DNA from: a virus
DNA length: 64,000 nt
IMG/VR virus record: IMGVR_UViG_3300043598_000012
Span: 16,881 to 80,880 of that record
Strand: one strand, 5' to 3'
A model generated the notes under the pieces. It was not told where the DNA came from. It searched no databases and saw nothing but the letters and a program-made list of their open reading frames with translations. A program made the translations under genes and the position numbers. Below are positions 4,683 to 53,414 of this stretch, piece after piece. Positions within the stretch are counted from its first letter, which is position 1; the number at the start of each line of letters is the position of its first letter.

Positions 4683-5279
4683 ATGCGCATGAAGAAGGGG
4701 TCCCTCGTCGTTGTGGAGGGGCTCGACTCAACAGGAAAGACGACGCTCGTGGACGCTCTAGCAGAGCACGTCCACGGCATCACGGCGGTGCACTCGCCCA
4801 GCGGTGGCGGTGAATTGGGCCAGGAGATCTACGAGCTCACCGAGCGGCCCAGGCCAATGGAGGGGCTTACTCGTCAGTTCTTACATCTTGCGGCCCACGT
4901 TGAGATTTACCAGAACACAGTAATCCCTGCCCTCTCGCAGAGCGCGGTCGTGATGGACAGGAACTGGTGTTCTACTTACGCCTACGGGATCGCAGGAGGC
5001 GTGCTGAAGAGCACCCCCATCTTCTCAGCCGATTGGTATGACACCGTGCAGTACCCTGCTCAGGGACAGGTGCCAGATCTCGTCGTGCTCTGCTTGGAGC
5101 CTCATCGAGACGACCGCCACAACACGCCGGAGCTCGAAGCTGCGTACCTTGATCTCAAGCGGAGGCTCGACAAGGACCCCGCTCTCAAGCACGTCCGGAT
5201 CATGCCCAAGCTCAGCAAGCGGGCACAGCTCATCGCTTTGATGCAGATGTGCCAGGAAGCCAACCTCACAAGGAGCTAG
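4683..5279 (+). CDS. Thymidylate kinase-family nucleoside monophosphate kinase
   Basis: 198 aa. Walker A is EGLDSTGKTT (residues 12-21) and the family Asp-Arg motif is in DRNWCSTYAYG, as in thymidylate kinases that convert dTMP to dTDP. Start ATG 4683 has a consensus AGGAGGT site. The TS-family gene follows at once. If that enzyme makes hydroxymethyl-dUMP, this kinase could phosphorylate it; the sequence alone cannot show which substrate is used. Confidence 0.85.
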   Translation: MRMKKGSLVVVEGLDSTGKTTLVDALAEHVHGITAVHSPSGGGELGQEIYELTERPRPMEGLTRQFLHLAAHVEIYQNTVIPALSQSAVVMDRNWCSTYAYGIAGGVLKSTPIFSADWYDTVQYPAQGQVPDLVVLCLEPHRDDRHNTPELEAAYLDLKRRLDKDPALKHVRIMPKLSKRAQLIALMQMCQEANLTRS

Positions 5280-5281
5280 CG

Positions 5282-6388
5282 ATGCACGAGTTCGTAGGCG
5301 AGGTCAATGAGGTGTACCCCGCCATGCTGCAAGCGGTGTTCAAGTTCGGCGAGCGTGTGCCGTCGAGAGTCGCCCCCACCATCGAGCTGCACCCCCTCGT
5401 GGCCGAGTTCGAGAACCCTCGTCGGCGTCTCGTCACCTCGTACGGCAGGGCAGTCAACGTGCCGTTCATGCTGGCTGAGGTGGTGCACATCCTCAACGGG
5501 CGAGAAGACCTCGCCTTCCTCGACCAGTTCAACAGCCAGGTCAAGGAGTACAGCGACGACGGTGTGCGCTTCAATGCTGCCTACGGACACCGGCTCCGTC
5601 ACGCACACGGCTACGACCAGGTCAGGGATGTCATCAAGCTCCTCAAGCGGGACCGGGGTACCCGTCAGGCGACGCTCACGATCTGGCACCCAGACGACCG
5701 CCATCACGAGCTTGTGCACGTCGAGTCGCACAACGGCGGTGTCGGTGATGGATGGAGCAAGGAAGAACCTCGCCAGGTCAAGGACCGGGCCTGCAACCTG
5801 CTCGCCCACCTGATGATCCGGGATGGTGTGCTCAACTGGATGCAGGTCATGCGGAGCAATGACGCCATCTGGGGGCTCCCCTACAACCTCATGCAATGGA
5901 CCTACCTCATGGAGTACATCGCCAACGAGGTGGGCGTGGAGCTCGGCGTCTACCGGCATATCGCCGACAGTTTCCACATCTACGACTACCACGAGGACGA
6001 GGCAAGCAAGGTCGCGCCCTTCGACCTCTACGAGCATCAGGGCCTGCGCTCTCGTTCGCATGCTCCGATGATCGCTGACGAATCTGCGTTGGAAGCAGCG
6101 GTCGAGCTCGCCAACCATGGTTGGAGCAGCGTTCATCACCCCGGCAACGTTCCTCAGTGGGTGATCGACTTTGGCCAGATCTGGTCAAGCTGGCGCTCCT
6201 ATAAGGAGCTCGACGATGCCGGAGCCCAGCATCAACTGACACGCGCCAACGATCAGATCTTCGCAGCGGCGACTTATCGCTTCTACTGGTCCAACCGCTG
6301 GCACAAGCAGGACCCCGGTCATCCGCGCCCAGACACCGTCAGAGCCGCATGGGGTTCGACCATCGGTGACTGGATCATGGCGTCATGA
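5282..6388 (+). CDS. Thymidylate synthase-family enzyme (TS or dUMP hydroxymethylase)
   Basis: 368 aa from ATG 5282 (AAGGAGC site; an in-frame start at 5249 lies inside the kinase gene). Family features: YGHRLR (101-106), catalytic Cys171 in RACNLLAHLM, RSND (191-194), GLPYN with the uracil-recognising Asn202, and the H232/Y234 region (SFHIYDYH). Asn202 argues for a dUMP substrate, not dCMP. The usual Pro-Cys-His is Ala-Cys-Asn, as in divergent phage members. The modification genes at 16.9-23.6 kb make 5-hydroxymethyl-dUMP a plausible product, but plain dTMP synthesis is not excluded. Confidence 0.85.
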   Translation: MHEFVGEVNEVYPAMLQAVFKFGERVPSRVAPTIELHPLVAEFENPRRRLVTSYGRAVNVPFMLAEVVHILNGREDLAFLDQFNSQVKEYSDDGVRFNAAYGHRLRHAHGYDQVRDVIKLLKRDRGTRQATLTIWHPDDRHHELVHVESHNGGVGDGWSKEEPRQVKDRACNLLAHLMIRDGVLNWMQVMRSNDAIWGLPYNLMQWTYLMEYIANEVGVELGVYRHIADSFHIYDYHEDEASKVAPFDLYEHQGLRSRSHAPMIADESALEAAVELANHGWSSVHHPGNVPQWVIDFGQIWSSWRSYKELDDAGAQHQLTRANDQIFAAATYRFYWSNRWHKQDPGHPRPDTVRAAWGSTIGDWIMAS

Positions 6389-6576: not shown

Positions 6577-6582
6577 TACAAT
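6577..6582 (+). promoter_or_regulatory. Class B -10 for the GIY-YIG gene
   Basis: TACAAT, 7 nt before ATG 6590. This argues that ATG 6590, not ATG 6581 inside the hexamer, is the start. A GTGACT at 6552-6557 could act as a weak -35. Confidence 0.5.
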
Positions 6583-6589
6583 GGTCCGT

Positions 6590-7129
6590 ATGGACCACGT
6601 CTCGATCTACGCCCTTTGCGACCCTGGCGGAGAGATCCGTTATGTAGGAAAGACGATGCAGCCGGTGAGCAACCGACTATCCATGCACGTCGCTGAAGCC
6701 AAGAACCCTCGATACCAGTGTCACAGACTCAACTGGATTCGATCTCTGTTGGATCAGGGAGCTCGCCCGGAAGCTGTGCTGCTGATGAAGGTGCCTGTCG
6801 CAGAGTGGGAGCTCTGGGAGTGCACCTAGATTGCTGTGTTGCGGGAGGCAGGCTACCGCCTGGTTAACAACACAGACGGTGGGGACGGGCGTGTAGGCCC
6901 ATTGAGCGAAGAGACGCGCCGCAAGATCGGCGAGGCCCATCGGGGGAAGCCGGTCAACCAGCCTGGCGTACCTTTGAAGGTGACGCACCGAGCGGCCATC
7001 AGCCGGTCGCTGGCAGGGAACCAACGAGGCAAAGGGAACCGTGGCAAGAAGCTCAGTGAAGAGCACAAGCGGAAGATCGGCGAGGCGCGACGCCGAGCCT
7101 ACGAGCGCCAGAGGGCAGAAGCCAGGTGA
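6590..7129 (+). pseudogene. GIY-YIG homing endonuclease interrupted by an in-frame amber codon
   Basis: The N-terminal half has the GIY-YIG core (SIYALCDPGGEIRYVGKT). After WELWECT the frame meets TAG at 6827-6829 and then continues in the same frame with IAVLREAGYRLVNNTDGGDG and two NUMOD3-like DNA-binding repeats (LSEETRRKIGEAHRGK and LSEEHKRKIGEARR). Homologues usually have Trp near the amber position, so a single TGG to TAG change would explain it. It is either an inactivated gene or one read through by a suppressor. The downstream part could also start at TTG 6836. It lies between nucleotide metabolism and the polymerase gene, a typical homing site. Confidence 0.75.
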
Positions 7130-13761: not shown

Positions 13762-14281
13762 GGTTTTGCACAGCGATCAGCCAGGCGACATCTCAGGGCC
13801 TTCACAAATGGGCGTCGGCATGCGAGTACCTGCCATCGTGTTTGACATCGATGGTGTGCTGTGCGACTCGGCCCAGAGCATCGCAGATGCCATCGAGGCA
13901 GCTCATGCCGTTGCTGAGCATGTCGACTGGATCGAGTGGAACAAGGGCGAATTCGCCTGCCACCCCGAGTACGTAGCCTTGGCTCAGCTACTCGCTCAGG
14001 CGGACGTGGCGATCATCCTGCTCACAGCCCGCCAGGAGCCTTCAAGGGAAGTCACGGAGTTGTGGCTCCAGAAGCACAGCATCCCCTTCGATGAGTTGCT
14101 CATGCGACCCATGGACCACGACTACTTCACCTGGAAGCAGGATGCTCTCTTGGCCTTGCGGAGCTCCGCATTTGACGTAAAGGTGGTGCTGGAGGATTCC
14201 TCCGCACACGTCGCTGCCATTCGCCGAGAGGTCGAGCTGCCGGTGATCCACGTGCAGAACGTGGGGAGTCACCTCCAGTAG
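13754..14281 (+). CDS. HAD-superfamily phosphatase
   Basis: 175 aa from ATG 13754. Motif I is FDIDGVLCDS (D31, D33), motif II is LLTARQE, and the acidic motif IV is VLEDSSAHVAAI. This resembles phage polynucleotide 3'-phosphatase or nucleotidase domains of the polynucleotide kinase type, but no kinase domain is present. Substrate unknown; nucleotide or DNA-end repair fits the neighbourhood. Confidence 0.75.
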   Translation: MSEVLHSDQPGDISGPSQMGVGMRVPAIVFDIDGVLCDSAQSIADAIEAAHAVAEHVDWIEWNKGEFACHPEYVALAQLLAQADVAIILLTARQEPSREVTELWLQKHSIPFDELLMRPMDHDYFTWKQDALLALRSSAFDVKVVLEDSSAHVAAIRREVELPVIHVQNVGSHLQ

Positions 14282-15578: not shown

Positions 15579-16124
15579 GTGCGGACGTGTCCCAAGTGTG
15601 GTCAGACCAAGCCTGAGTCGTGCTTCTACCAGAGTAAGAAGACCAACGGTTGTAGAGCGTGCGAGCGTTTGGCTGCTGGCAAGTACAAGAGGAAACTGAC
15701 GCCTGAGCGTAGGGCAGAGATCAACGCTAGAGCTCGTCAGCGACACCAAGAGCGCCGGAAGGATCCTGAGTACGTAGAGGCCAGGAACGCAAGAGCGAGG
15801 GCGCAGAGCCGAGCAGCACGAGAGGACCCTGTGCGTCGAGCTGCCATAGCGGCAGCCACTAGAAGTCGCAACCTGTTGAAGGCCCACGGCATGCAGGAGG
15901 AGGACTTCGACGAGCTCTGCGAACTGCAAGGTGGCGTCTGTGCCTTGTGCGACGGGATCCCGAGTGGCCGCGGCCCGAACAAGTTCTTGCACGTAGACCA
16001 CGATCACACTTCTGGTGTGCTGAGGATGCTCCTGTGTAGCAACTGCAACACGGCTCTCGGGCTCATGAAAGACAACCCTGATCTGCTTCGAAAGGCAGCC
16101 GAGTACTTGGAGATCTTCGCATGA
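15579..16124 (+). CDS. HNH endonuclease, recombination endonuclease VII type (copy 1)
   Basis: 181 aa from a leaderless GTG. N-terminal zinc finger CPKCGQTKP ... CRACER; long basic middle; C-terminal endonuclease VII fold: CALC, LHVDHDHTSG, MLLCSNCNTALG, then AAEYLE. Such free-standing HNH genes are usually homing endonucleases that copy themselves between phages. Two relatives occur at 23618 and 31552. Its own promoter fits a mobile gene. Confidence 0.88.
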   Translation: MRTCPKCGQTKPESCFYQSKKTNGCRACERLAAGKYKRKLTPERRAEINARARQRHQERRKDPEYVEARNARARAQSRAAREDPVRRAAIAAATRSRNLLKAHGMQEEDFDELCELQGGVCALCDGIPSGRGPNKFLHVDHDHTSGVLRMLLCSNCNTALGLMKDNPDLLRKAAEYLEIFA

Positions 16125-16631: not shown

Positions 16632-16935
16632 GCCCACCAAGCGGGAGATCAACCGGGGCATCGCCAGGGGGGCTCGTTGCCCCAACTGTCGAGCCTTCTG
16701 GTCTTGGTGTGTCTGCTCTGCTGTGGAGCGAGCATCTGCCATGCGAGCCCTGCTGGAGGAGCAGGTGCTGCTCTTCCGAGAGGTGGCTCACTGTGCCTGG
16801 CACCTCCTCGACGATGGTGGTGAAGTCGAGGGCGATGATGAGATGTGGCAAGGATCCAAGCGGGATGCCGACAGACTCTCGGATGCGCTCAACGACCTAG
16901 AGGCGAGTGGCTGGGACGCACACCCTGATGCCTGA
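16624..16935 (+). CDS. Hypothetical protein with Cys cluster (103 aa)
   Basis: ATG 16624, 8-nt overlap upstream. CPNCRAFWSWCVC near residue 20 could bind zinc; the remainder is helical and acidic. Directly upstream of, and overlapping, the AADT homologue, so perhaps an accessory. No family recognised. Confidence 0.6.
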   Translation: MPEPTKREINRGIARGARCPNCRAFWSWCVCSAVERASAMRALLEEQVLLFREVAHCAWHLLDDGGEVEGDDEMWQGSKRDADRLSDALNDLEASGWDAHPDA

Positions 16936-17884
16936 CTTCCTGCCTGATGGTGAAGAGCGCTTCGAGGAGCTCGTGGAGTTCATGCTCCACATGCACAGCA
17001 GCCGGGACCTCGATCCGCTGTACCCAGTGCTGCGCAAGCTCCAGAACAACTTCAACCGAGAGCAGGGGCTCTGGTTCAGCTTCCTCTACGTGGCGTGGTA
17101 CAACCTGCCTTCGGCTTGGGCAGCGTTCAACATGTCTACCTACCCGACCGAGCTGCTACCTCTGTGGCTGGACCCCAAGTGGCCGACCGGCACAGAGCGT
17201 CGAGCCAACCGTGGTGGCAAGGTGGCCGAACACATCCAGGACTACATGCTCAAGATCGCGGGGAGCCGTAGTCAGTACCGCTGGTACACCAAGGACTTGG
17301 TGCTGGATGATCTTGATCAAGCAACCAAGGAGATCAACTGGTACACGCTCAACGAGCGCATCCAGTCACTCTTCATGAACGGTCGTTGGGCGGGATACAA
17401 GCACTGCGAGGTGCTGGCCAAGGTCAACGGCATCCCAGTGCTAGCTCCCCACATGGGTCACGCCAACAGTAGCGGACCTCGCCAAGGTCTTGCTATGATC
17501 TACGATTGCAGCGAGCTGACTGGCAACGACCCAGGCACCATCGCTGTGCTCGATGAGATGAGCGCGGACCTGACCTTCCAACTCGACCAAGCTCTCCCCG
17601 GCTTGAACCTGGAGATAGAGGACGTGGAGACGATCCTCTGCAACTGGAAGTCGCTGATGAAGGGCAAGTACTACGTCGGTCACGACATCGACGAGCTGCA
17701 AGAGCAGATCCTCCGAGCAGAGGAGCGTGGCATCCTTTCGAAGGAGTCCTCGCGCTACCTGTGGCGGGCTCGCAAGGCCGTCTTGCCGCACGAGTACCTC
17801 GGTGAACTGGGAGGATGGGAGGGCGTAGACCGACGGCGCATGGCTGCGTACAAAGACACTGGAAGGATTGAGGTGCGATCGTGA
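16928..17884 (+). CDS. Amino acid:DNA transferase homologue (thymidine hypermodification, AADT/aGPT-Pplase family)
   Basis: 318 aa from ATG 16928. The helical protein shows segments I associate with the alpha-glutamyl/putrescinyl thymine pyrophosphorylase families: GLWFSFLYVAWYNLPSAW (48-65), NSSGPRQGL (180-188) and ETILCNWKSLMKGKYYVG (234-251). In known phages these enzymes displace pyrophosphate from a 5-pyrophosphoryloxymethyl-dU in DNA and attach an amino acid. The same stretch of genome carries a P-loop kinase, a flavoenzyme and dCTP deaminase, matching that pathway. Call is by recognition and context; the amino acid used cannot be read from sequence. Confidence 0.65.
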   Translation: MPDFLPDGEERFEELVEFMLHMHSSRDLDPLYPVLRKLQNNFNREQGLWFSFLYVAWYNLPSAWAAFNMSTYPTELLPLWLDPKWPTGTERRANRGGKVAEHIQDYMLKIAGSRSQYRWYTKDLVLDDLDQATKEINWYTLNERIQSLFMNGRWAGYKHCEVLAKVNGIPVLAPHMGHANSSGPRQGLAMIYDCSELTGNDPGTIAVLDEMSADLTFQLDQALPGLNLEIEDVETILCNWKSLMKGKYYVGHDIDELQEQILRAEERGILSKESSRYLWRARKAVLPHEYLGELGGWEGVDRRRMAAYKDTGRIEVRS

Positions 17885-18018
17885 AGAAGTTCGAACCGCC
17901 CCGTGAGGGCGACAGCTGGAGGGTGTACACCAAGCGAGAGGCCAAGCGTCTCCGCACCACCCGGCGTCGTGTCATCCGGGCCATGGCCAAGAACAACCGG
18001 AAGGTGGTCGAGAAGTGA
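17881..18018 (+). CDS. Small basic protein (45 aa)
   Basis: GTG 17881 overlaps the AADT stop (GTGA). Sequence KKFEPPREGDSWRVYTKREA then an Arg/Lys-rich helix, likely nucleic-acid binding. Next gene starts at the overlapping GTGA. Function unknown. Confidence 0.6.
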   Translation: MKKFEPPREGDSWRVYTKREAKRLRTTRRRVIRAMAKNNRKVVEK

Positions 18019-18263
18019 GGCTCATCACAGCAGCCATAGGAGGTGCCATCGCCGGAGGAGTCATGGCGTGCTCTGCCAGTTCTGGCGCTGATGTCTCTGA
18101 CGTCAAGACGGACAGCTTCGAGCTGGACCTTCGAGAGCCAGGCATCCAGGTCGCGGACTTCGTGAACGAGCACGGCAAGCCGTGCACCGTCGTCGGCGAG
18201 CGTGCAGGTGATGGCGGAGACGGCGTGTCGCTCTCCCTTTCCTGCGACTGGAGTGCTCGATGA
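18015..18263 (+). CDS. Predicted lipoprotein (82 aa)
   Basis: GTG 18015. Signal: MRLITAAIGGAIAGGVMACSAS, with a lipobox-like VMAC at residues 16-19, so Cys19 would be lipidated. The mature part is acidic and has two further Cys. Phage lipoproteins often act in superinfection exclusion, but nothing here proves it. Confidence 0.6.
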   Translation: MRLITAAIGGAIAGGVMACSASSGADVSDVKTDSFELDLREPGIQVADFVNEHGKPCTVVGERAGDGGDGVSLSLSCDWSAR

Positions 18264-18409
18264 GCTCTCGAGAGATCGTCGCAGTCATCCTCATGGTGGC
18301 AGCAGCAGCGGTGCTCGCCAACGGAGGACACGTGTGGGCCGCTGCTGCTGTGCTCATCTTCGGCGGCATCATCGCAGCAGCGAGTGGGAGCTCTGGGCAC
18401 GATGGCTGA
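18260..18409 (+). CDS. Small membrane protein (49 aa)
   Basis: ATGA overlap with the lipoprotein gene. Two hydrophobic stretches (IVAVILMVAAAAVLA and WAAAAVLIFGGIIAAAS) predict a two-span helical hairpin. Could accompany the lipoprotein; not placed near lysis genes, so a holin call is not made. Confidence 0.55.
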   Translation: MSSREIVAVILMVAAAAVLANGGHVWAAAAVLIFGGIIAAASGSSGHDG

Positions 18410-18563
18410 GGGCTACGACGTAGAGCTCTCTGACGCCAACGGCGAGATCTTCACCGCCACGCTCTACTCCGAAGATCAGTTCGAGCGGGTCAAGCGAGCC
18501 AACGAGTCGGGACTACTCAAGGTGCGCACATTCATCATCGAGCACAACAAGAGAGAGGTCTGA
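18402..18563 (+). CDS. Small hypothetical protein (53 aa)
   Basis: ATG 18402 overlaps by 8 nt. Predicted beta-beta-alpha-beta: MAEGYDVELSDANGEIFTATLY then KVRTFIIEHNK. TGATG overlap with the TSCPD gene. Function unknown. Confidence 0.55.
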   Translation: MAEGYDVELSDANGEIFTATLYSEDQFERVKRANESGLLKVRTFIIEHNKREV

Positions 18564-18949
18564 TGAGCGCTGTTCGAGAGCGTCCGCCGGTCATGCGCCA
18601 TGGCCAGACCACCTCGTTTCACGTGGGCGAGGCCAAGGGCTACATGACCGTCAACCTGTCGGAGGATGGCAGGCCCATCGAGATCTTTCTGAAGCTCGCC
18701 AAGCAGGGTTCCACCCTCTCCGGCATCTTCGACTCGCTCGCCATCCTCATCAGCCACTCGCTACAGCGGGGCGTTGGCGTCGAAGAGATCTGCGACTCGC
18801 TCATCGGGCTCCGCTTCGAGCCTTGGGGGCAGACCAACGACCCTGACATCCCTGAGGCACGTTCGATCAGCGACTACATCGGTCGTCGGCTCGCGCTCGA
18901 CTACGTGGACTGGGAGGTCGCTTCCGAGCTCCTCCAGAAGCACCAGTGA
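18563..18949 (+). CDS. Stand-alone TSCPD protein (class II ribonucleotide reductase C-terminal domain)
   Basis: 128 aa. GYMTVNLSEDGRPIEIFLKL, then AKQGSTLSGIFDSLAILISHSLQRG, and SISDYIGRRLALDY match the TSCPD segment normally found at the end of adenosylcobalamin-dependent ribonucleotide reductases. No catalytic RNR subunit is in the window. It could regulate a host or phage reductase encoded elsewhere, or be a re-used nucleotide-binding module. Its place beside nucleotide genes fits precursor supply. Confidence 0.65.
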   Translation: MSAVRERPPVMRHGQTTSFHVGEAKGYMTVNLSEDGRPIEIFLKLAKQGSTLSGIFDSLAILISHSLQRGVGVEEICDSLIGLRFEPWGQTNDPDIPEARSISDYIGRRLALDYVDWEVASELLQKHQ

Positions 18950-19506
18950 CCTGCATCGCAGCCGTCGCTGGTGAAGACGGCACCGTGTACATGGGCGGGG
19001 ACTCCGCAGGGATCGACTCGCGTCTCGACCTTGGCATCCACGCTGAGACCAAGGTGTGGCGCTCAGGTCCGGCGCTCTTCGGGGCGTGTGGCTCCTTCCG
19101 AGTCGCCCAGCTCATCCGCAACAAGATGCACGTGCCGACCTACGAGCCGGGTGACGATGTCTGGCCCTACCTGGTCGGCCCGTTCATCGACGCCATGCGT
19201 GAGTCGCTGGCCATGGGCGGAGCCCTGGCGCAGTGGCTGGAAGATGCTAACGAGTCGATGTTCGGCAGCTTCGTGGTGGCCGTCGGCGGCAGGGTCTTTG
19301 AGATGTACGAGGACTTCGGCGTCGGAGAGCTTGTGCACGGCTACGCCGCAGTGGGTTGCGGAGCTCCGATGGCTGTCGGTTCCTTGGCGACCACCGAGCA
19401 CCTTCGAGTAGGCCCCAAGCGTCGAGTCGAACTTGCTCTAGAGGCAGCGGAGCGACACAGCGGAGGGGTGCGAGGCCCCATGCATATTGAGAAGCTCCCT
19501 GCATGA
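18946..19506 (+). CDS. Ntn-hydrolase / proteasome beta-like protein
   Basis: GTG 18946; the Met would be followed by Thr. After Met removal, Thr1 begins TCIAAVAGEDGTVYMGGDSAG. The proteasome/HslV catalytic set appears as Thr1, Asp18 in GGDSAG and Lys35 in ETKVW. About 186 aa, the size of HslV. Related proteins occur in many actinobacteriophages with unknown substrate. It could be a self-compartmentalised peptidase or an amidohydrolase. It overlaps both neighbours by 4 nt. Confidence 0.75.
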   Translation: MTCIAAVAGEDGTVYMGGDSAGIDSRLDLGIHAETKVWRSGPALFGACGSFRVAQLIRNKMHVPTYEPGDDVWPYLVGPFIDAMRESLAMGGALAQWLEDANESMFGSFVVAVGGRVFEMYEDFGVGELVHGYAAVGCGAPMAVGSLATTEHLRVGPKRRVELALEAAERHSGGVRGPMHIEKLPA

Positions 19507-20084
19507 CTCTTCCTGACCACGAGATCGAAGCGGCGGTGCGCAGCCACAACCTGGGCATCGAGCCATTCAACGAGGAACAGCTCCAGCCTGCGAGCTACGA
19601 CTTGCGGTTGGATCGCTACTTCCGCCGAGTGCGTGGTGCAGCTTCTGAGGCGCGGCTCGTGGACCCCGCTAAGGACCAGGACTGGACTGTCGAGGCGCAC
19701 CCTGTGCACCGTGGCGGCAGGCCTATGATCGGCTTGGAACCTAACAAGATGCTGCTGGCGAGCACTGTGGAGCGGATCCGGATGCCCGCCCACCTCGTCG
19801 CCCGTGTTGAGGGCAAGAGCTCGCTGGCTCGGCTAGGCCTGTTCGTGCACGTCACGGCAGGCTTCATCGACCCAGGCTTCGAAGGTCACATCACGCTGGA
19901 GCTCTACTGCGGCAACGGGCGGGGCATCATCCTCTACCCCGGCATGCCCATTGCTCAGATCGCTTTCGACCGGATGGACTCGCCACCCCGCCAGGTGTAC
20001 GCCGGGAAGTACCAGGGCTCCAACGAGCCTGGGCCAGTGCCTTCTAGGTACCACCAGAACTTCCCACTCAAGGAGATGACATGA
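19503..20084 (+). CDS. dcd: dCTP deaminase / dUTPase-family enzyme
   Basis: 193 aa, the same length as bacterial Dcd. Motifs: QPASYDLRL (29-36), RVEGKSSLARLGL (101-113), TAGFIDPGFEGHITLEL with the catalytic-type Glu133, and the trimer core PGMPIAQIAF. Dcd converts dCTP to dUTP, and bifunctional forms go to dUMP, the substrate of the TS-family enzyme. ATGA overlaps at both ends place it inside the modification operon. Confidence 0.88.
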   Translation: MTLPDHEIEAAVRSHNLGIEPFNEEQLQPASYDLRLDRYFRRVRGAASEARLVDPAKDQDWTVEAHPVHRGGRPMIGLEPNKMLLASTVERIRMPAHLVARVEGKSSLARLGLFVHVTAGFIDPGFEGHITLELYCGNGRGIILYPGMPIAQIAFDRMDSPPRQVYAGKYQGSNEPGPVPSRYHQNFPLKEMT

Positions 20085-20326
20085 ATAACGGCGACAAGGT
20101 CAAGGACAAGATCACGGGCTTTGAGGGCACCGTGACCGGGCGGGTCGAGTACATCACCGGCTGCAACCAGCTGTTGGTGCAGCCATCTTCCAAGGACGGC
20201 ACTGAGATGCCCAAGTCGTCTTGGATCGACGAGGACCGTTGCGAGCTCGTCGTGGCCATGTTCGTCGACCCCAACACGCTCCAGAAGCGCAACCCTGGCT
20301 TCGGCGAGCCTGCTCCGATCCGATGA
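20081..20326 (+). CDS. KOW/SH3-like small protein (81 aa)
   Basis: Starts MNNGDKVKDKITGFEGTVTG, a beta-barrel pattern of the KOW or SH3 type common in small phage proteins. ATGA overlap with dcd. Possible nucleic-acid contact. Function unknown. Confidence 0.55.
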   Translation: MNNGDKVKDKITGFEGTVTGRVEYITGCNQLLVQPSSKDGTEMPKSSWIDEDRCELVVAMFVDPNTLQKRNPGFGEPAPIR

Positions 20327-20520
20327 AGTACTTCATGAGCGATGCCGAGATCGCCAACCGCAAGAAGGCTCGTTGCGACATCCTCGATGCCGTCAACAAG
20401 GGCCGGGACAAGCCTCTTCGCATGCGCCACATCCAGCGAGCAGCGCACGTCGCCCGCCATCAGAAGCTCGTCAAGAAGAACGTGCTGGTGGCAGTGGGGT
20501 TCAACCCAACCAGCCGGTGA
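20323..20520 (+). CDS. Small basic helical protein (65 aa)
   Basis: ATG 20323 overlaps upstream TGA. Rich in Arg/Lys/His (RMRHIQRAAHVARHQKLVKK), likely to bind nucleic acid. GTGA overlap downstream. Function unknown. Confidence 0.6.
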   Translation: MKYFMSDAEIANRKKARCDILDAVNKGRDKPLRMRHIQRAAHVARHQKLVKKNVLVAVGFNPTSR

Positions 20521-20711
20521 GGGCGGAGCCAGGGGATCGAGTTCTGTTGCGAGGAGATCACCCCTACTGCGGGCATACAGGTTCCGTAACAGAACCTTTG
20601 CACTCTACGGCAGCAGGTCAGGCCATCAAAGTGCGTGTTGATGGTGGACCTGAGGTCTACGCCTTCGGCGATCAATGGACGGGCACACCCAAGGGAAGAA
20701 GTGTTCAGTGA
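20517..20711 (+). CDS. SH3-like small protein (64 aa)
   Basis: GTG 20517. EPGDRVLLRGDHPYCGHTG and IKVRVDGGPEVYAFGDQW give a compact beta-barrel pattern, similar in style to the protein two genes upstream. Overlaps the flavoprotein gene (GTGA). Function unknown. Confidence 0.55.
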   Translation: MRAEPGDRVLLRGDHPYCGHTGSVTEPLHSTAAGQAIKVRVDGGPEVYAFGDQWTGTPKGRSVQ

Positions 20712-21634
20712 GAGTTCACCTGGAAGGGTTCGGGCTTATGGGCAGCCTGCTGGCCCCTCACCTAGAGGACGTTGGTATCGAATTCACTTTCCACGACATC
20801 GGTGAAGAGCGAGTGCAGAGCTGGCGGGCAAGCACCGGCGCCATCATGCCTTTTGGGGACGAAGACTCCATGCAAGGGTTGGAGGACTGGCGGCAGATGG
20901 TTCGCTGCAAGGGTACGTTCCGGGAGCTCTACCTACCACACATCCAGCGAGCTCGGTTCTGCTATTACAGCCAGAACCCTCCGCACGGTGGGGCCAAGTT
21001 TGGTGTGGAGGAGATCGCCAAGGTTGGCGGTGTGCGCATCAGCAACAAGCACAGCTTCCACATTGACGCTCAGCAGGTGGTAGAAATTGCCCGCAGCCAC
21101 TACCGAAAGCAGCGTCTCGCCCATCGCCCATCCAAGAAGGCTGACGATGATCTGCTCATCGTGACGCATGGATGGCGTCCGAACACCATCGGCGCCTACT
21201 CGTGGGGTTGGAGTGCCATTGTTACTGCCAGGATGAGTGATGAATTGCAGATCGCCTTAGGCTTTGGGGAGGGTTGCTTCTACCTGCGCAACGGATATCA
21301 GGTTTGTTACCTTTACCCTGTGGGGCGGACGGGCGCCTTTTACGCAGGAACCACACTTGTGACTCAGAAGAACGGCCCCAAGGACCTCGACCCTGAGCCG
21401 CACTACAGGCGATGGGCAAACCAGCTAGAGAACTTCTCTGGAGGCCACCTCGCTGTCCGAGAACTGCTTCCGAACACTCTGCGGCAAGCCTGGCGCCCTA
21501 AGCCTCGCGACGACCAGAGCGAGCTTGTATGGAGGCGAGGCAGCACGGTCTACTTCCGGCCTGCGGCAGGTAACGGGATCAGGCTTTTCCCGCTCTACCT
21601 CGACGCCCTGTTGGCCGAGCTCGGGGTACGATAG
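20708..21634 (+). CDS. FAD-dependent oxidoreductase/lyase candidate (DAO-like)
   Basis: 308 aa from GTG 20708. N-terminal Rossmann motif G7-x-G9-x2-G12 in LEGFGLMGSLLAPHL, then STGAIMPFGD. The C-terminus AAGNGIRLFPLYLDALL resembles the D-amino-acid-oxidase fold's final FAD contact. Glycine- or amino-acid-processing flavoenzymes of this type are known in thymidine hypermodification, where a flavin lyase trims the attached amino acid. Its position between AADT and DNA kinase candidates supports that role. Other oxidase functions remain possible. Confidence 0.65.
   Translation: MRVHLEGFGLMGSLLAPHLEDVGIEFTFHDIGEERVQSWRASTGAIMPFGDEDSMQGLEDWRQMVRCKGTFRELYLPHIQRARFCYYSQNPPHGGAKFGVEEIAKVGGVRISNKHSFHIDAQQVVEIARSHYRKQRLAHRPSKKADDDLLIVTHGWRPNTIGAYSWGWSAIVTARMSDELQIALGFGEGCFYLRNGYQVCYLYPVGRTGAFYAGTTLVTQKNGPKDLDPEPHYRRWANQLENFSGGHLAVRELLPNTLRQAWRPKPRDDQSELVWRRGSTVYFRPAAGNGIRLFPLYLDALLAELGVR
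21627..21632 (+). promoter_or_regulatory. Class B-like -10 with short leader
   Basis: TACGAT; predicted +1 near 21639, 24 nt before ATG 21663, which has a GGGAG site. Confidence 0.45.
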
Positions 21635-21662
21635 TACAGAGCCGACTTAACCGGGAGTGCAA

Positions 21663-21905
21663 ATGCCGAACGAAGAGAACTACGTGGACCGCACCTACAA
21701 GGTTAGGGAGAAGATCGCTCCTGGCCTGCATGAGGGCGTCACCTTCACGGTGCTACATCAAGACGACGCCGGATTGATCGTAGGGGTGCCCGAGGAGCGC
21801 CCAGTGGTGAAGGCTGAGGGGATCTCCAAGGAGGAGATGGACACCAACCACCGCATCCCCGTCTCCGCTCTCGGGAAGTGCGATGGGGTCACTGATGGCG
21901 AGTGA
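21663..21905 (+). CDS. Hypothetical protein (80 aa)
   Basis: ATG 21663 with GGGAG five bases upstream; GTG 21657 is an alternative. Small alpha/beta protein (KVREKIAPGLHEGVTFTVLH). The 3' end overlaps the next gene by 11 nt. Function unknown. Confidence 0.6.
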   Translation: MPNEENYVDRTYKVREKIAPGLHEGVTFTVLHQDDAGLIVGVPEERPVVKAEGISKEEMDTNHRIPVSALGKCDGVTDGE

Positions 21906-22413
21906 CATCCAGCCCATCAGTGGCGAGGAGTTTCGGCAGCTCGGCTACCTCCAGGAAGTCAACCGTCAGGTGCTGCATCCGCTCGGGCTCGCGCTCTACA
22001 ACGACCAGGGTTGGAGCAGGGAGCGAGTCGAGAAGCTGCTCCAGGAGCAAGGTGTCCAGTTCGGCGAGGACGCCATCGACAACATCATGACCTTCCTGGC
22101 TCGTGCTGGCCTCATGGAGGAGCACATCGCCGGAGCTCTCGACGATCGGAGCGACCCCGAGGGTTGGCAGTTCGCTGTGCGAGCCGACCACCTCGAAGAG
22201 GACATGGCGGAGTTCACCCGCAAGCGGATCAACATCGAGGGTGAGTGGACCAGCCGGTCGCTCACTCGCATCGCCAACCTTGGCTACATCGTTCAGGAGG
22301 ACATCCACGTCCCTGGCATGCAGCCGCTAGCCTTCGGCGAGGATGATGAGCCAGTTGACGATGAACCAGAAGTTGGTTCTGTCGATTCTGCCTCGCTTCC
22401 GGAGGGATCGTGA
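21895..22413 (+). CDS. Conserved phage hypothetical protein (172 aa)
   Basis: ATG 21895. GEEFRQLGYLQEVNRQVLHPLGLALYN is a pattern I have seen in many actinobacteriophage proteins of unknown function, as is the DDRSDPEGWQF segment. An acidic tail ends the protein. GTGA overlap with the next gene. Confidence 0.65.
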   Translation: MASDIQPISGEEFRQLGYLQEVNRQVLHPLGLALYNDQGWSRERVEKLLQEQGVQFGEDAIDNIMTFLARAGLMEEHIAGALDDRSDPEGWQFAVRADHLEEDMAEFTRKRINIEGEWTSRSLTRIANLGYIVQEDIHVPGMQPLAFGEDDEPVDDEPEVGSVDSASLPEGS

Positions 22414-22736
22414 GCGAGCCCACCTACTCTAGAGAGGTGCTCGTCGACCTGTGCGAGCGGGCAGCTGTCCCTGTAGACCACTGGCACGACCGCGACTCAG
22501 CGGGGGCTCAGAAGCAGGTGGGCGAGGCCTTGATGCTCCTCAAGGCTGGGTGCGATTTCTCTATGAGCGAGGATCCCGTCACGGACGAGAAGACCGTCTG
22601 GATCAGGGTTGTCTACCCAGGGTTCAACGCCTTCGAGTGTGGTCGGGATCGTGCCGACGGATACTGGGATGATGACACCTTCTACATCCCCACCAACGTG
22701 CGGCTCGCTCGCTCAGAAGGCAAGGACTGGTACTGA
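22410..22736 (+). CDS. Hypothetical protein (108 aa)
   Basis: GTG 22410. N-terminal helices, then a beta-rich part (KTVWIRVVYPGFNAFECGRD). One-base overlap with the next ATG. Lies between the flavoprotein and the DNA kinase candidate. Function unknown. Confidence 0.6.
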   Translation: MSEPTYSREVLVDLCERAAVPVDHWHDRDSAGAQKQVGEALMLLKAGCDFSMSEDPVTDEKTVWIRVVYPGFNAFECGRDRADGYWDDDTFYIPTNVRLARSEGKDWY

Positions 22737-23014
22737 TGGGTCTCGTTGGCGCCATGGCCTACCCGCACGCGCTACGAGCAGGGCAGAAGGTGATCTGGGA
22801 TCAGCGTGATGGTGTGGCGACCGTCCTCGTGGTAAAGGACGTGAAGCGCATCACCGTCGAGCACGCTCGTCCGTTCTATGAGGGTAGGCACGGAGTCCGA
22901 GATGCCGACTTCACACATGTTGTGGTGAACTTCAAGGGGCTGCCATGGCCGGTGATCTTCGGGCACATGCAATCGGTGTCCGTGTTCGAACAGCAGTTCC
23001 GAGGAGATGACTGA
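22736..23014 (+). CDS. Hypothetical protein (92 aa)
   Basis: TGATG overlaps at both ends. LRAGQKVIWDQRDGVATVLVVKDVKRITVEH suggests a small beta-barrel. Immediately precedes and is coupled to the P-loop kinase. Function unknown. Confidence 0.6.
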   Translation: MGLVGAMAYPHALRAGQKVIWDQRDGVATVLVVKDVKRITVEHARPFYEGRHGVRDADFTHVVVNFKGLPWPVIFGHMQSVSVFEQQFRGDD

Positions 23015-23580
23015 TGAAGCGTTACATGTGTTACATCGTGGGAGAACCTGGCAGCGGCAAGACAACGCTGTGCCGAGAGTTCACATCTGACCTTCGCAAG
23101 AAGGTCAAGACTGTCCCCTACGTGAGCTATACTCACTTCGGCAAGGAGACCATGGAGCTCGGCCACGATCGGGAGACATTCGGGGGTACTGATGCTCTCG
23201 GGATGGCTGCCCAGAACCATGTGCTGGAGTTCCTGCGTAACGGACCTGGCGCCGAGTACCGCTACATCCTGGCGGAGGGGGACCGGCTTGCCAACGCCAA
23301 GTTCTTCGAGGCGGTGCGGGGCATGGGCATCGACCTGAACGTCTACGCCTTGCTACCTCCGGCCAAGGTCATCGAGCGTCGTCGAGCTGCCCGCAACGCA
23401 TCCATTGGCAAGGAGCAGAACGAGCGGTGGCTGAAGACGAGGGCCACCAAGGTTGCCAACATTGTCCACGATTGGGTTCCACCAGAGCATCGGCTGACCC
23501 AAAGACCAGAAGAGGTCCTTCGGATCATACTGGCAGACGATCCGGTGGCGAAGCAGTTGGCTCGGATGCGCGACTCCTAG
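23014..23580 (+). CDS. P-loop kinase, 5-hydroxymethyl-dU DNA kinase candidate
   Basis: 188 aa. Walker A GEPGSGKTT (10-18); HFGKETMELG and GGTDALGMAAQNHVLEFL (58-74) resemble the nucleobase-DNA kinase family found with hypermodified thymidine; LAEGDRL (87-93) gives the acidic Walker B-like residues. In known systems this enzyme phosphorylates 5-hmdU already in DNA, activating it for the AADT enzyme. Without the AADT and flavoprotein neighbours it would only be called a small P-loop kinase, so the specific role is inference. Confidence 0.65.
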   Translation: MKRYMCYIVGEPGSGKTTLCREFTSDLRKKVKTVPYVSYTHFGKETMELGHDRETFGGTDALGMAAQNHVLEFLRNGPGAEYRYILAEGDRLANAKFFEAVRGMGIDLNVYALLPPAKVIERRRAARNASIGKEQNERWLKTRATKVANIVHDWVPPEHRLTQRPEEVLRIILADDPVAKQLARMRDS

Positions 23581-23605
23581 TTGGAGTTGTCTGATTCGGT
23601 TGTCC

Positions 23606-23611
23606 TATGCT
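23606..23611 (+). promoter_or_regulatory. Class B -10 for second HNH gene
   Basis: TATGCT, 6-nt gap GTTGTC, then GTG 23618. TTGGAG at 23581-23586 could be a -35 at 19-bp spacing. Confidence 0.5.
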
Positions 23612-23617
23612 GTTGTC

Positions 23618-24076
23618 GTGGAGCTCAAGACGTGTAGCAAATGCAAAGAGAAGAAGCCAATCAGCGAGTTCCACCTCGTGCGCAAAAGCGGTACACAACG
23701 GTTCTCTCGATGCAAGCCGTGCAGGCTACAGGACCAACGCGATTGGTATTCTAGGTTGTCTTCAGAGGAGCGGCGAGCTCGGCAAAAGGCGCCCGAAAGA
23801 AACCGAGACCTGCACCTTCGTCGCACTTATGGAATCACGCTTGCAGAGTTCAATGCCATGTTGCGCCACCAACGAGGACGCTGTGCTATCTGCCGCACCA
23901 AGGAGCCAGGTGGCAGGTCTCGTCACAAGCACGGTTGGTTCGTTGACCATTGTCACAAGACCGGTAAAGTGCGAGGTCTCTTGTGCAGTGACTGCAATTT
24001 GCGCCTACTTCCTGGAGCTAAGGACAGCGTGAAGATCCTTCGAGCGGCCGTCGCGTATCTGGAGCGGACATCGTGA
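23618..24076 (+). CDS. HNH endonuclease, endonuclease VII type (copy 2)
   Basis: 152 aa from GTG 23618, placed by the -10 hexamer. N-terminal CSKCKEKKP ... CRL; C-terminal CAIC, WFVDHCHKTGKVRGLLCSDCN, LLPGAKD and AAVAYLE. Similar in layout to the copies at 15579 and 31552 (DHCHKTG and GLLC are shared with 31552). Sits between the DNA kinase and the helicase with its own promoter, as expected for a homing insertion. Confidence 0.88.
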   Translation: MELKTCSKCKEKKPISEFHLVRKSGTQRFSRCKPCRLQDQRDWYSRLSSEERRARQKAPERNRDLHLRRTYGITLAEFNAMLRHQRGRCAICRTKEPGGRSRHKHGWFVDHCHKTGKVRGLLCSDCNLRLLPGAKDSVKILRAAVAYLERTS

Positions 24077-50533: not shown

Positions 50534-52006
50534 ATGTCTAAGCGCGGCATTTATCGGGGGTTTGAACGGAGCCCTGATGGTCTTGAGCCAGATCTGACGT
50601 TCCGTCTTGAGACGGATTTCTATACGACAGAACCGCAACAAGTGCCAGTTAGTGTCGTGGGTCCTGTTGAACTGGGCCGTGCGGGACCCATCGAGTTCCG
50701 CGCCACCACAGATCGACCTCGCATTGAAGTCGAGGTGGCTTGCGAAACCACTGGGATTATGCATGCCCTATGGCAGGTGATCATTGGCCCAGGTTTGCCG
50801 TTCTCGCTGCATGGCGGCACCGTCTCAGGTGGGGTTGTGGGTACCACAACCCACGACATAGGCAAGGTGGCTGGCGAGTATGGTCAGGGCCAGATTGCAG
50901 CAACTATTTGGCCGGACGACGTGCATGAAGGCCAGATCGTCCGTTGCCAGGTCTTTACTGGCGTTGTTGGTTACGCTGCGCTGGTCTCAGGTCTAACGGT
51001 TGGCAATGTTGCTGTGCGGGTTATGCCCAACAACAAGAAGCTGTACGTGCTGCACGGAGCTGCCATTACGCCGATCATCCTGGGCCGTACGCTAGAGAAC
51101 CACGCGAACGCCACCATCGCTGGCGAGTACATACCGGCTGTGCCGTATGTAACCGGCGGAGCTGCGGATGTGGTCTTCAAATCTGATAGTAGTCGAGCCT
51201 ACGTTTCAGACTGGTTTGGGGCTGTTCCGCAAGTTGTGGTGGTTGACACATTGACCGATAGAGTGCTGACTGTGATCCCAGGATTCTCACCGATCGGGAT
51301 GGCGATAACGGATGATGACTCCAAGGTCTTTGTGTGCACGGGGGCTGGGGCTAATGCCATCAAGATCATCAACACAACTACCCACGCCGTCACTACCCAG
51401 TCACTTGCAAGCACTTCAGTGGTTAGTGCCCAGTGCGAGATAAGTCCCGACGGAACCAAGCTCGCTGTGGCGACTGGTGGTGGAAGTGGCGTTACCAACC
51501 GTGTTTATGTCTACACGGTTGGGACAGGCGGCACTACTTGGACATTGCTGGCTACGTGTGTGGTTGGGGGAGCTGACTCGTTCCCTGGACCGATCGCATG
51601 GGAAGGTAACAACGTTGTTTGGGCTCCTTACGAGACCTTGAATGCTGTTTATCGCTGCCAGGTCGATACACAAGGCGTCTCTTCGTTCGCCTTCACCGGA
51701 GCTAATTGCGTGGCAGTGACTGGCAGCGGGTTGGGGAAGAGCTTGTTCGTCACTAGTGCCACCAACACTGACCGCATGGCCTACTACGTCCTCCCGAGCT
51801 CCAGTGCCGTTGCACCAACCAAGTACGACAATGCCAACCTGTTTGACATGTACAGCGTCCAGCTCTCCAGTGACGATTTCATCTACCAGGGCACAGACGA
51901 TGGACAGGTCTACATTAACCAGGGTGGTCAGATATGGTGTAGACCAAATTCTGGGTTCTGGGGCGAAGGTGTAACAGTCCGTGTGTTTGGGGGTGAGCCG
52001 GTATGA
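50534..52006 (+). CDS. Beta-propeller structural protein, receptor-binding candidate (490 aa)
   Basis: ATG 50534. A beta-rich N-terminal domain is followed by propeller-like blades from about residue 170: MPNNKKLYVLHGAA, SRAYVSDWFGAVPQVVVVDT, SPIGMAITDDDSKVFVCTG, EISPDGTKLAVATGGGSG, each with the YVTN-type pattern. Phage propellers of this kind often sit on tail fibres. Placement among other structural-type genes supports it. Confidence 0.6.
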   Translation: MSKRGIYRGFERSPDGLEPDLTFRLETDFYTTEPQQVPVSVVGPVELGRAGPIEFRATTDRPRIEVEVACETTGIMHALWQVIIGPGLPFSLHGGTVSGGVVGTTTHDIGKVAGEYGQGQIAATIWPDDVHEGQIVRCQVFTGVVGYAALVSGLTVGNVAVRVMPNNKKLYVLHGAAITPIILGRTLENHANATIAGEYIPAVPYVTGGAADVVFKSDSSRAYVSDWFGAVPQVVVVDTLTDRVLTVIPGFSPIGMAITDDDSKVFVCTGAGANAIKIINTTTHAVTTQSLASTSVVSAQCEISPDGTKLAVATGGGSGVTNRVYVYTVGTGGTTWTLLATCVVGGADSFPGPIAWEGNNVVWAPYETLNAVYRCQVDTQGVSSFAFTGANCVAVTGSGLGKSLFVTSATNTDRMAYYVLPSSSAVAPTKYDNANLFDMYSVQLSSDDFIYQGTDDGQVYINQGGQIWCRPNSGFWGEGVTVRVFGGEPV

Positions 52007-52728
52007 GCATGCTCAGCGAGCACGAGTCTTTGACAACTGCCCATGGCATCATTAACCCTAACGACCTATGGAACCAGTACGACTCAATGGCGCGCTGGCA
52101 GGCCATTGCTGGGGCAACCACCTTGTCTACGGTAGGTCAGTCCACGATCGGGATGCCCGCTCCAACTGTCCGGGGCACTCCGGCCAACGCCGACAATGGC
52201 TCAGGGGCACTTATCGCCTACCCCACCACTGGTGTCAATAACAATGTCGCTGGCATCAACTCGGCAGCTGCTGCGTACCGAGCGACATGGCTCCCTTCAG
52301 TGGCTTTCGTTGGCAGGTTTGGGGCGCTGATCACCAACTACCGTCTTTGGGTTGGGTTGTTCTCGGCGGACCCATCTGGCTCTGCTACTGCACCAGCTCA
52401 CACAGCCGGGTTCCGGTTCGATACGGGTGCCGGGGACACAACGTTCAAGGCTGTAACCAAAGATGCGACCACAGCCACTGTCCTTGAGACGGGGTACGTG
52501 CCTCAGGCTGATGGCCAGTTCAATCTTGGCATTGAACTCGCTGGCGTCGTTGGAGTTGCTCCTCAACGAGCCAACTTCTACATCAACAGGGTTAAGGTGC
52601 AAACCACGACCCTGACCCTTCCGGTGTCGGCAACCACGAATCTTCTGTTCTATTGCTCGCTGACGAACCTGTCGGCTGCCACGCACACGATTCGGGTTGG
52701 CCGAGTCTCCATCGCAACACAAGGCTAG
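52003..52728 (+). CDS. Probable tail/fibre structural protein (241 aa)
   Basis: ATGA overlap start. NPNDLWNQYDSMARWQAIAG then a long beta region (RLWVGLFSADPSGSAT, FNLGIELAGVVGVAPQRANFYIN) consistent with a lectin-like beta-sandwich. Likely displayed on the virion; ligand unknown. Confidence 0.55.
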   Translation: MSMLSEHESLTTAHGIINPNDLWNQYDSMARWQAIAGATTLSTVGQSTIGMPAPTVRGTPANADNGSGALIAYPTTGVNNNVAGINSAAAAYRATWLPSVAFVGRFGALITNYRLWVGLFSADPSGSATAPAHTAGFRFDTGAGDTTFKAVTKDATTATVLETGYVPQADGQFNLGIELAGVVGVAPQRANFYINRVKVQTTTLTLPVSATTNLLFYCSLTNLSAATHTIRVGRVSIATQG

Positions 52729-52733
52729 TCTCC

Positions 52734-53414
52734 ATGGCTCGTTACTTGCACAATGATGGCAATTGGGAATTGCTCAACGCACCTGACGTGCCCGACGTCT
52801 TTACCCCCTCGTTGGTGCAGAGTAAGTCTAGTGCCATGTGGGCCACAACACCTTCTGCAACGGTGAGCTTTGATGTTCTTCCTTCTGCTGGGAATCTCAT
52901 TGTGGCTGCTGCGGTAAGTCGACATGTTCATGCAACGGTTACCCCACCAGTAGAGCTGACAGAGCTCGTTGTTGGCCTAAACAGCACAGAGAATGACTTT
53001 GCAGCCATCTATGCAGGCTTGTCTGATGGTAGCAACGGGTTTCAGTGGGACTACACCGTCAATGACGTGTTGGCAGTGTGGCTTGCTGAGTTTTCGGGAG
53101 ATTGGACTTCCGTGGTTGCAGAGTCAACAACTTCACGCAGTCGGCAAAGTGACACTGGCGGGGCCATTGGCGCGCTCACCATTGCTCAGCCTTCGCTGGT
53201 AATCGCCTGCATGGGAGCGAGGTTGGATGTGGACGGAACTTGGGACTCTCCCCTGTCTCCGGTAGCAGACCTTTTCCATACAGGCACTGGCAGTGAGCCT
53301 ACAACCAATTTAACTTCGGTCGTTCTTGAGCGTTCATCTAACGTCACACCCACTGTGACCCTATCTGGTTCAGCGGTCAACTTCGCTTCTGCTGTTGCCA
53401 TCAAAATCCAATGA
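52734..53414 (+). CDS. Probable tail/fibre structural protein (226 aa)
   Basis: ATG 52734. MARYLHNDGNWELLNAPDVP, then a beta-rich body (SAGNLIVAAAVSRHVHATV, GSAVNFASAVAIKIQ) like the glycine-poor lectin domains of phage fibres. It shares the H-x-D-G-x-W start (HNDGNW) with HRDGSW in the next protein, perhaps a common virion-docking motif. Confidence 0.55.
   Translation: MARYLHNDGNWELLNAPDVPDVFTPSLVQSKSSAMWATTPSATVSFDVLPSAGNLIVAAAVSRHVHATVTPPVELTELVVGLNSTENDFAAIYAGLSDGSNGFQWDYTVNDVLAVWLAEFSGDWTSVVAESTTSRSRQSDTGGAIGALTIAQPSLVIACMGARLDVDGTWDSPLSPVADLFHTGTGSEPTTNLTSVVLERSSNVTPTVTLSGSAVNFASAVAIKIQ

Follow-up and report, generated by a model that had tools for sequence, protein, structure and literature searches.

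A probable hybrid pathway of thymidine hypermodification encoded by a phage with TET-lineage enzymes and a thymidylate synthase-type hydroxymethylase

Introduction

Pathways of thymidine hypermodification have been published for the phages M6, ViI and PaMx11. The PaMx11 system consists of an amino acid:DNA transferase (AADT, gp46), a flavin adenine dinucleotide (FAD)-dependent lyase (gp47), a kinase (gp49) and a thymidylate synthase (TS)-type hydroxymethylase (gp51). Here we analyze a 64,000-nucleotide stretch of the IMG/VR virus record IMGVR_UViG_3300043598_000012, in which a run of genes at 16907-23580 and a TS-family gene at 5282-6388 recall these systems. This stretch, the window, covers bases 16881-80880 of the 80,880-bp record, and all coordinates below are window positions. 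The first-pass annotation, made from the sequence alone, had named an AADT, a dCTP deaminase, a flavoenzyme, a kinase with the motif GGTDALGM, a TS-family enzyme and a thymidylate kinase, and had read them as a thymidine hypermodification set. The genes are present, as Pfam matches and, for the flavoenzyme, structure confirm, and the reading of AADT, kinase, flavoenzyme and TS-family feed as one set is upheld by profiles, a residue signature, a predicted fold and genome neighborhood.

We consider it likely that these genes encode a hybrid pathway with 5-aminomethyl-dU (5-NmdU) as its product. We also favor, a little less firmly, the view that hypermodification is built from exchangeable modules and that this phage is a natural chimera, in which a kinase and an AADT of a lineage otherwise tied to TET oxygenases, joined by a DAO-fold lyase family not assigned before, are fed by a pre-replicative dUMP hydroxymethylase instead of TET. 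The analysis computed family membership, the integrity of motifs, the fold of the flavoenzyme, hydroxymethylase-type residues, the lack of a detectable TET/JBP gene and the pattern of neighborhoods.

Results

Four genes form the core of the proposal:

16907-17884, plus strand: AADT, proposed glycine transferase (Pfam ADDT, 3.2e-23)
23014-23580, plus strand: P-loop kinase (Ploopntkinase3), proposed 5-hydroxymethyluracil (5-hmU) DNA kinase (Pfam PF18751, 1.2e-23)
20708-21634, plus strand: DAO-fold flavoenzyme, proposed FAD-dependent lyase removing the carbon part of the amino acid (AlphaFold and Foldseek; adjacency to the AADT)
5282-6388, plus strand: TS-family protein with a dUMP-hydroxymethylase signature, proposed source of 5-hydroxymethyl-dUMP (5-hmdUMP) (phage and PDB matches, residues, tree)

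The survey that places these genes searched IMG/VR with kinase, flavoenzyme and AADT alignments, the last for each of two subtypes, and the neighborhoods recovered were then profile-scanned. Alignment queries were required; a scan of IMG/VR with a single AADT or flavoenzyme protein returned no relatives. The unit of counting is the locus, with some near copies and some contigs reached twice included, and the search patterns favor relatives of the queries; the counts describe a pattern, not natural frequencies. Two cassettes emerged. One joins a TET/JBP oxygenase to Ploopntkinase3 and one AADT subtype; the other joins a TS-type hydroxymethylase to the 5-hydroxymethyl-dU (5-hmdU) DNA kinase family 5-HMUDK and another AADT subtype. 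The AADT subtype found in the window is accompanied by TET/JBP in 59 of 62 loci and by a TS-type gene in none of the 62, while the M6/PaMx11 subtype is accompanied by a TS-type gene in 61 of 78 loci and by TET in none of the 78. TET and a TS-type gene occur together in none of the surveyed loci. The same separation is seen in whole genomes: no TS-family gene was found in 17 TET-bearing whole records of IMG/VR or in 6 TET-bearing isolates, and M6 and PaMx11 each have one. The window is the only case among the surveyed loci in which an AADT and kinase of the TET lineage keep company with a TS-type hydroxymethylase.

Because the Pfam TET model is weak by itself (6e-4 on gp2 of Gordonia phage Wooper), we built our own TET profiles. 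No TET/JBP gene was found anywhere in the 80.9-kb record with the Pfam model, an actinophage profile or a 55-member profile run with filters off, and the same profile detects TET in relatives at 1e-87 to 1e-100. On these searches we reject a hidden TET/JBP gene. The loci L056, L170, L174, L191 and L216 were considered as further TET-less examples of the window's AADT subtype and set aside, as they end near the cassette; in several relatives TET sits downstream of the kinase. L014 and L015 were also rejected as comparable cases, since they belong to a separate, diverged group of large phages (a 169-kb record, with its TS gene elsewhere).

The replacement of TET by a dUMP hydroxymethylase suggests that the trio of kinase, AADT and flavoenzyme works on 5-hmU whatever its source. 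By the same reasoning from gene content, it suggests that the TET-lineage cassettes act on 5-hmU, with the actinophage TET serving as a thymine hydroxylase.

Two further groups of loci were seen in the survey. In the large phages (L014, L015 and L253-L256, up to 169 kb) a diverged AADT adjoins a member of this flavoenzyme family, and the loci contain no TET; one of these phages carries, elsewhere, a TS gene with in-frame TAA codons, perhaps the sign of an altered genetic code. Ploopntkinase3 is present in hundreds of mycobacteriophages, and 21 IMG/VR loci (among L169-L240) combine it with TET and have no AADT within the locus, a combination that suggests other modifications built on a phosphorylated base.

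The AADT reading frame opens with a GTG at 16907 and encodes 325 amino acids; the start first given, at 16928, is an in-frame ATG. Its product scores 83.1 bits against ADDT (PF18724; curated cut-off 26.2), in agreement with the initial call, and matches the glycinyltransferase 8z2m (1.6e-9) and the AADT 25qc (4e-9) in the PDB. It is 37-38% identical to the AADTs of Mycobacterium phage Phelemich, Gordonia phage Wooper and Rhodococcus phage Tonitrus and 23-24% identical to those of M6 and PaMx11. The residues common to both AADT lineages (DxDP, ERR, R and ET-x-C) are intact in an alignment with M6, PaMx11 and actinophage AADTs.

The kinase, of 188 amino acids, scores 84 bits against Ploopntkinase3 (cut-off 27) and has an intact Walker A motif (GEPGSGKTT) and the GTDAL motif within GGTDALGM. 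The 5-hmdU DNA kinase of M6, gp54, falls in another Pfam family, PF18748 (7.7e-18). When the group of the window's kinase was aligned by hhalign with the 5-HMUDKs of M6, PaMx11, L012 and L013, the larger alignments gave a match of 97.4% (9e-12) over 130 columns that takes in the LGxxxxxxxGxD and EG motifs; small alignments gave 94%. The control, the window's thymidylate-kinase-like protein, reached 31.5% over 30 columns, in the P-loop only. Judged by these comparisons, the kinase is a distant relative of the M6 and PaMx11 5-hmdU DNA kinases, at the profile level only.

The best PDB match of the protein encoded at 5282 is the CMP 5-hydroxymethylase MilA, ahead of all TS entries, and the widest phage matches listed are deoxyuridylate hydroxymethyltransferases of the SPO1 type (Goe9, 35%, 4e-36); identity is 34% to M6 gp58 and 31% to PaMx11 gp51. 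In a residue table with 14 other enzymes, numbered by Escherichia coli ThyA, it has Cys146 followed by Asn, has Asn177 and lacks Trp80. The same pattern is found in the SPO1-like, M6, PaMx11, ViI-like, L012 and L013 enzymes. The counterparts are Cys-Thr and Asp177 in T4 dCMP hydroxymethylase, and Cys-His and Trp80 in true thymidylate synthases. True thymidylate synthases form a separate clade in the tree (100/97), and the protein lies outside it. Its residues and relatives thus indicate that it is no ordinary thymidylate synthase.

These residues also bear on the target base. Methylcytosine is the reported substrate of some phage TET enzymes, and elsewhere the window's subtypes of kinase and AADT go with TET, so that a cassette acting on cytosine, as 5-hydroxymethylcytosine, can be imagined. 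We give this very little credence: no TET is present in the window, and at position 177 its hydroxymethylase has the dUMP-type Asn, not the Asp of T4 dCMP hydroxymethylase. Thymine is the target that we retain.

The flavoenzyme gene starts with a GTG at 20708, a choice backed by the frames of relatives, which open at the same motif. Searches of Pfam, PHROGs and PDB sequences gave no significant match to its product. An AlphaFold model made from ten IMG/VR sequences (mean pLDDT 89.8, pTM 0.86) was compared with the PDB by Foldseek, and matched human D-amino acid oxidase (2.7e-12, TM 0.66-0.68), glycine oxidase (1.5e-9) and 8z79, the N-alpha-GlyT FAD-dependent lyase gp47 of PaMx11 (1.6e-9, TM 0.60/0.64). 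The glycines of the GxGxxG motif (G7, G9 and G12) are invariant in the family alignment. On the strength of the model, this is a diverged DAO-fold family whose kinship is visible in fold, not in sequence. The family is found in both cassette lineages, with TET (for example L039, L050 and L070) and with TS (for example L012, L013, L112 and L126). In all 27 newly fetched loci with an uncut flavoenzyme gene an AADT lies alongside, and in every untruncated locus found the gene adjoins an AADT. A scan of bacterial genomes found no relatives.

Three genes may serve precursor supply:

4683-5279, plus strand: thymidylate-kinase-like protein, proposed 5-hmdUMP kinase (Pfam Thymidylate_kin, 2.4e-13)
19503-20084, plus strand: dCTP deaminase, proposed dUTP/dUMP supply (Pfam DCD, 6.6e-47)
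18563-18949, plus strand: stand-alone TSCPD-domain protein (ribonucleotide-reductase-associated), precursor metabolism (Pfam TSCPD, 2.6e-12; PHROG ribonucleotide reductase matches)

The stop of the thymidylate-kinase-like gene directly precedes the start of the hydroxymethylase gene, a position that points to activity on 5-hmdUMP. DCD-like genes are also found near the TS-type cassettes L242, L243 and L263. The TSCPD protein may act in precursor metabolism here as well. The thymidylate-kinase-like gene beside the hydroxymethylase, and the dCTP deaminase and TSCPD protein inside the cassette, are in keeping with precursor supply. Right after the hydroxymethylase gene, 6581-7129 holds a weak GIY-YIG match and a NUMOD3 gene, possibly a split homing endonuclease. 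At 13808-14281 lies a HAD phosphatase gene whose product resembles the phosphatase domain of polynucleotide kinase (PHROG, 2.9e-21); with the adjoining dATP/dGTP-pyrophosphohydrolase-like gene at 13363, it could shape nucleotide pools.

It had also been suggested that the small genes between the core genes may be new accessories. This idea found no support, as those tested have no counterpart in other cassettes. One is the TSCPD nucleotide-metabolism gene; another, at 18946-19506, encodes an HslV/proteasome-like Ntn-hydrolase with relatives (31-43% identity) in unrelated phages of Moorella, Vibrio, Ochrobactrum and Microbacterium.

All genes named by the first-pass annotation lie on the plus strand with good coding scores, and their family matches are far beyond chance. 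Genes in the run at 16907-23580 mostly overlap by 1-4 bp, with larger gaps at 20520-20708 and 21634-21663. The first genes of the record look tail-like by eye, a 1,179-amino-acid tape-measure-like open reading frame (ORF) among them, and the genes at its other end include those for terminase, portal and major head protein; it seems to hold most of a phage genome, although IMG/VR classes it as linear. Near relatives of segment 14000-25900 at the DNA level were absent from 50,697 phage records, and known portals share no more than 23-28% identity with its portal protein. There is no sign of a mis-joined contig, which is still conceivable; the correlation of composition with the window is 0.973 for the cassette and 0.897 for the TS region.

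Two Endonuclease_7 (recombination endonuclease VII-type) genes, at 15579-16124 and 23600-24076 (Pfam, 4e-20 and 5e-22; 29% mutual identity), stand on either side of the cassette and may mark past mobility of the segment; long repeats flanking the cassette were looked for, and none were found. A block at 50534-54919, of low GC (0.547) and with a tetranucleotide correlation of 0.574 with the rest, is possibly a recent import. Of its four large ORFs, the three scanned have no Pfam match and one has a weak PHROG match to a tail protein.

Discussion

The window probably holds a complete enzyme set for an amino-bearing, positively charged base that replaces some of the thymine. What follows is our inference throughout: the reactions and their order, the amino acid used, the product and its role in protection. 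Before replication, the dCTP deaminase (19503) would supply dUTP/dUMP, the TS-family hydroxymethylase (5282) would make 5-hmdUMP from dUMP, and the thymidylate-kinase-like protein (4683) would phosphorylate this nucleotide; part of the thymidine in the DNA would then be replaced by 5-hmdU. Once the DNA has been copied, the kinase (23014) would add a phosphate to the hydroxymethyl group of 5-hmU in it, and the AADT (16907) would exchange that phosphate for a free amino acid, most likely glycine, joined through its amine. The flavoenzyme (20708) would then oxidize the N-Calpha bond; a keto acid would leave (glyoxylate in the case of glycine) and 5-NmdU would remain. Restriction enzymes of the host would be blocked by this charged base. 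The last chemical step draws on established chemistry: DAO-fold enzymes oxidize the N-Calpha bond of amino acids, and such an oxidation of an amino acid N-linked to the 5-methylene of dU would free the keto acid and leave 5-aminomethyl-dU. The aminomethyl-dU product that had been guessed at the outset is still the most economical one, and its closest functional precedent on the list of fold matches is the PaMx11 lyase.

Several observations weigh against this pathway. PF18748 (HMUDK_HMUD1, 5-HMUDK) is absent from the best 25 of the 37 Pfam families listed for the kinase; the first-pass expectation therefore holds for a P-loop kinase and, for the 5-HMUDK family, only as a relationship between profiles. 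The flavoenzyme and its relatives in Wooper and Tonitrus do not match Pfam DAO (PF01266), and the DAO-like label is borne out by predicted fold and not by sequence. The fold matches are moderate (TM of about 0.6-0.7) and nearer to D-amino acid oxidase than to gp47, and hhalign links the family to gp47 at 46%, over just 49 N-terminal columns at the Rossmann motif. The tree gives the AADT a long branch of uncertain position; its placement in this way was given up, and the tree therefore does not tell which amino acid it uses. The 5282 protein is not firmly within the dUMP-hydroxymethylase clade, and some 10 kb separate its gene and that of the thymidylate-kinase-like protein from the cassette.

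The distance of the flavoenzyme family from gp47 in sequence, its best fold matches to D-amino acid oxidases, and an AADT just 23-24% identical to glycine-linked enzymes would also fit a functional cassette with another product. A different amino acid might be used, or oxidation might proceed without cleavage (to an imine, a keto form or another state), and the base would keep more of the amino acid. We regard this as unlikely, though worth serious consideration. The simplest outcome when a DAO-fold enzyme oxidizes an N-linked amino acid is that the keto acid departs and the amine stays, as the established chemistry of glycine oxidase and PaMx11 gp47 illustrates, and genes of the pyridoxal phosphate (PLP), radical-SAM and acetyltransferase types, which could build a larger product, were not recognized among the window genes scanned.

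The 10-kb separation, together with the commonness of ordinary TS genes in phages, could instead mean that the TS-family enzyme and the thymidylate kinase make only dTMP and that the cassette draws its 5-hmU from an undetected oxygenase or the host. This is improbable, given the hydroxymethylase-type residues, the top PDB match to MilA, the SPO1-like hydroxymethyltransferases among the closest phage relatives and the position outside the TS clade. Moreover, no TET appeared even with the broad profile and filters off, and the TET-type phages examined have no TS gene. The hybrid pathway to 5-NmdU is the reading that we prefer.

The locus connects two phage pathways that do not otherwise overlap in any locus examined, and the hybrid set points to how the less-studied version probably works. 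It allows an argument, from sequence, about the base that TET-type cassettes modify in mycobacterial, gordonial and rhodococcal phages. If the chimera reading is true, the TETs of the actinophage cassettes have a JBP-like activity and make 5-hmU, and the neighboring "hypothetical protein" is the enzyme by which 5-aminomethyl-dU is unmasked. The target of these cassettes is directly testable in cultured isolates by liquid chromatography-mass spectrometry. Modeling also shows what fold an unannotated protein family of both cassette types has and what role it is likely to play, which adds a candidate enzyme for aminomethylated DNA. As far as can be told, the chimeric combination, the DAO fold of the flavoenzyme family and the non-overlap of TET and TS in these data are new.

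Compared with described systems, the locus shares with M6 and ViI the logic of AADT, DNA kinase and TS-type hydroxymethylase; it differs in having no recognized PLP or radical-SAM enzyme and in the Pfam family of its kinase. It resembles PaMx11 in outline through four activities: a TS-type hydroxymethylase (31%), an AADT (24%), a P-loop kinase (distant) and a DAO-fold flavoenzyme (fold match to 8z79). Unlike PaMx11, its AADT and kinase are of TET-linked subtypes, its flavoenzyme comes from a different sequence family, its TS gene stands 10 kb off, no acetyltransferase was found in the window, and its precursor supply includes a dCTP deaminase and a thymidylate-kinase-like protein. With the TET/JBP cassette of the actinophages (Gordonia phages Wooper and LittleMunchkin, Rhodococcus phage Tonitrus) it shares the AADT subtype (37%), the kinase family (35-39%) and the flavoenzyme family (29-31%). 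In contrast to that cassette, its three core genes are scattered among about a dozen small genes, and in place of the TET/JBP and ParB-like genes, which it lacks, the window carries a TS-type hydroxymethylase.

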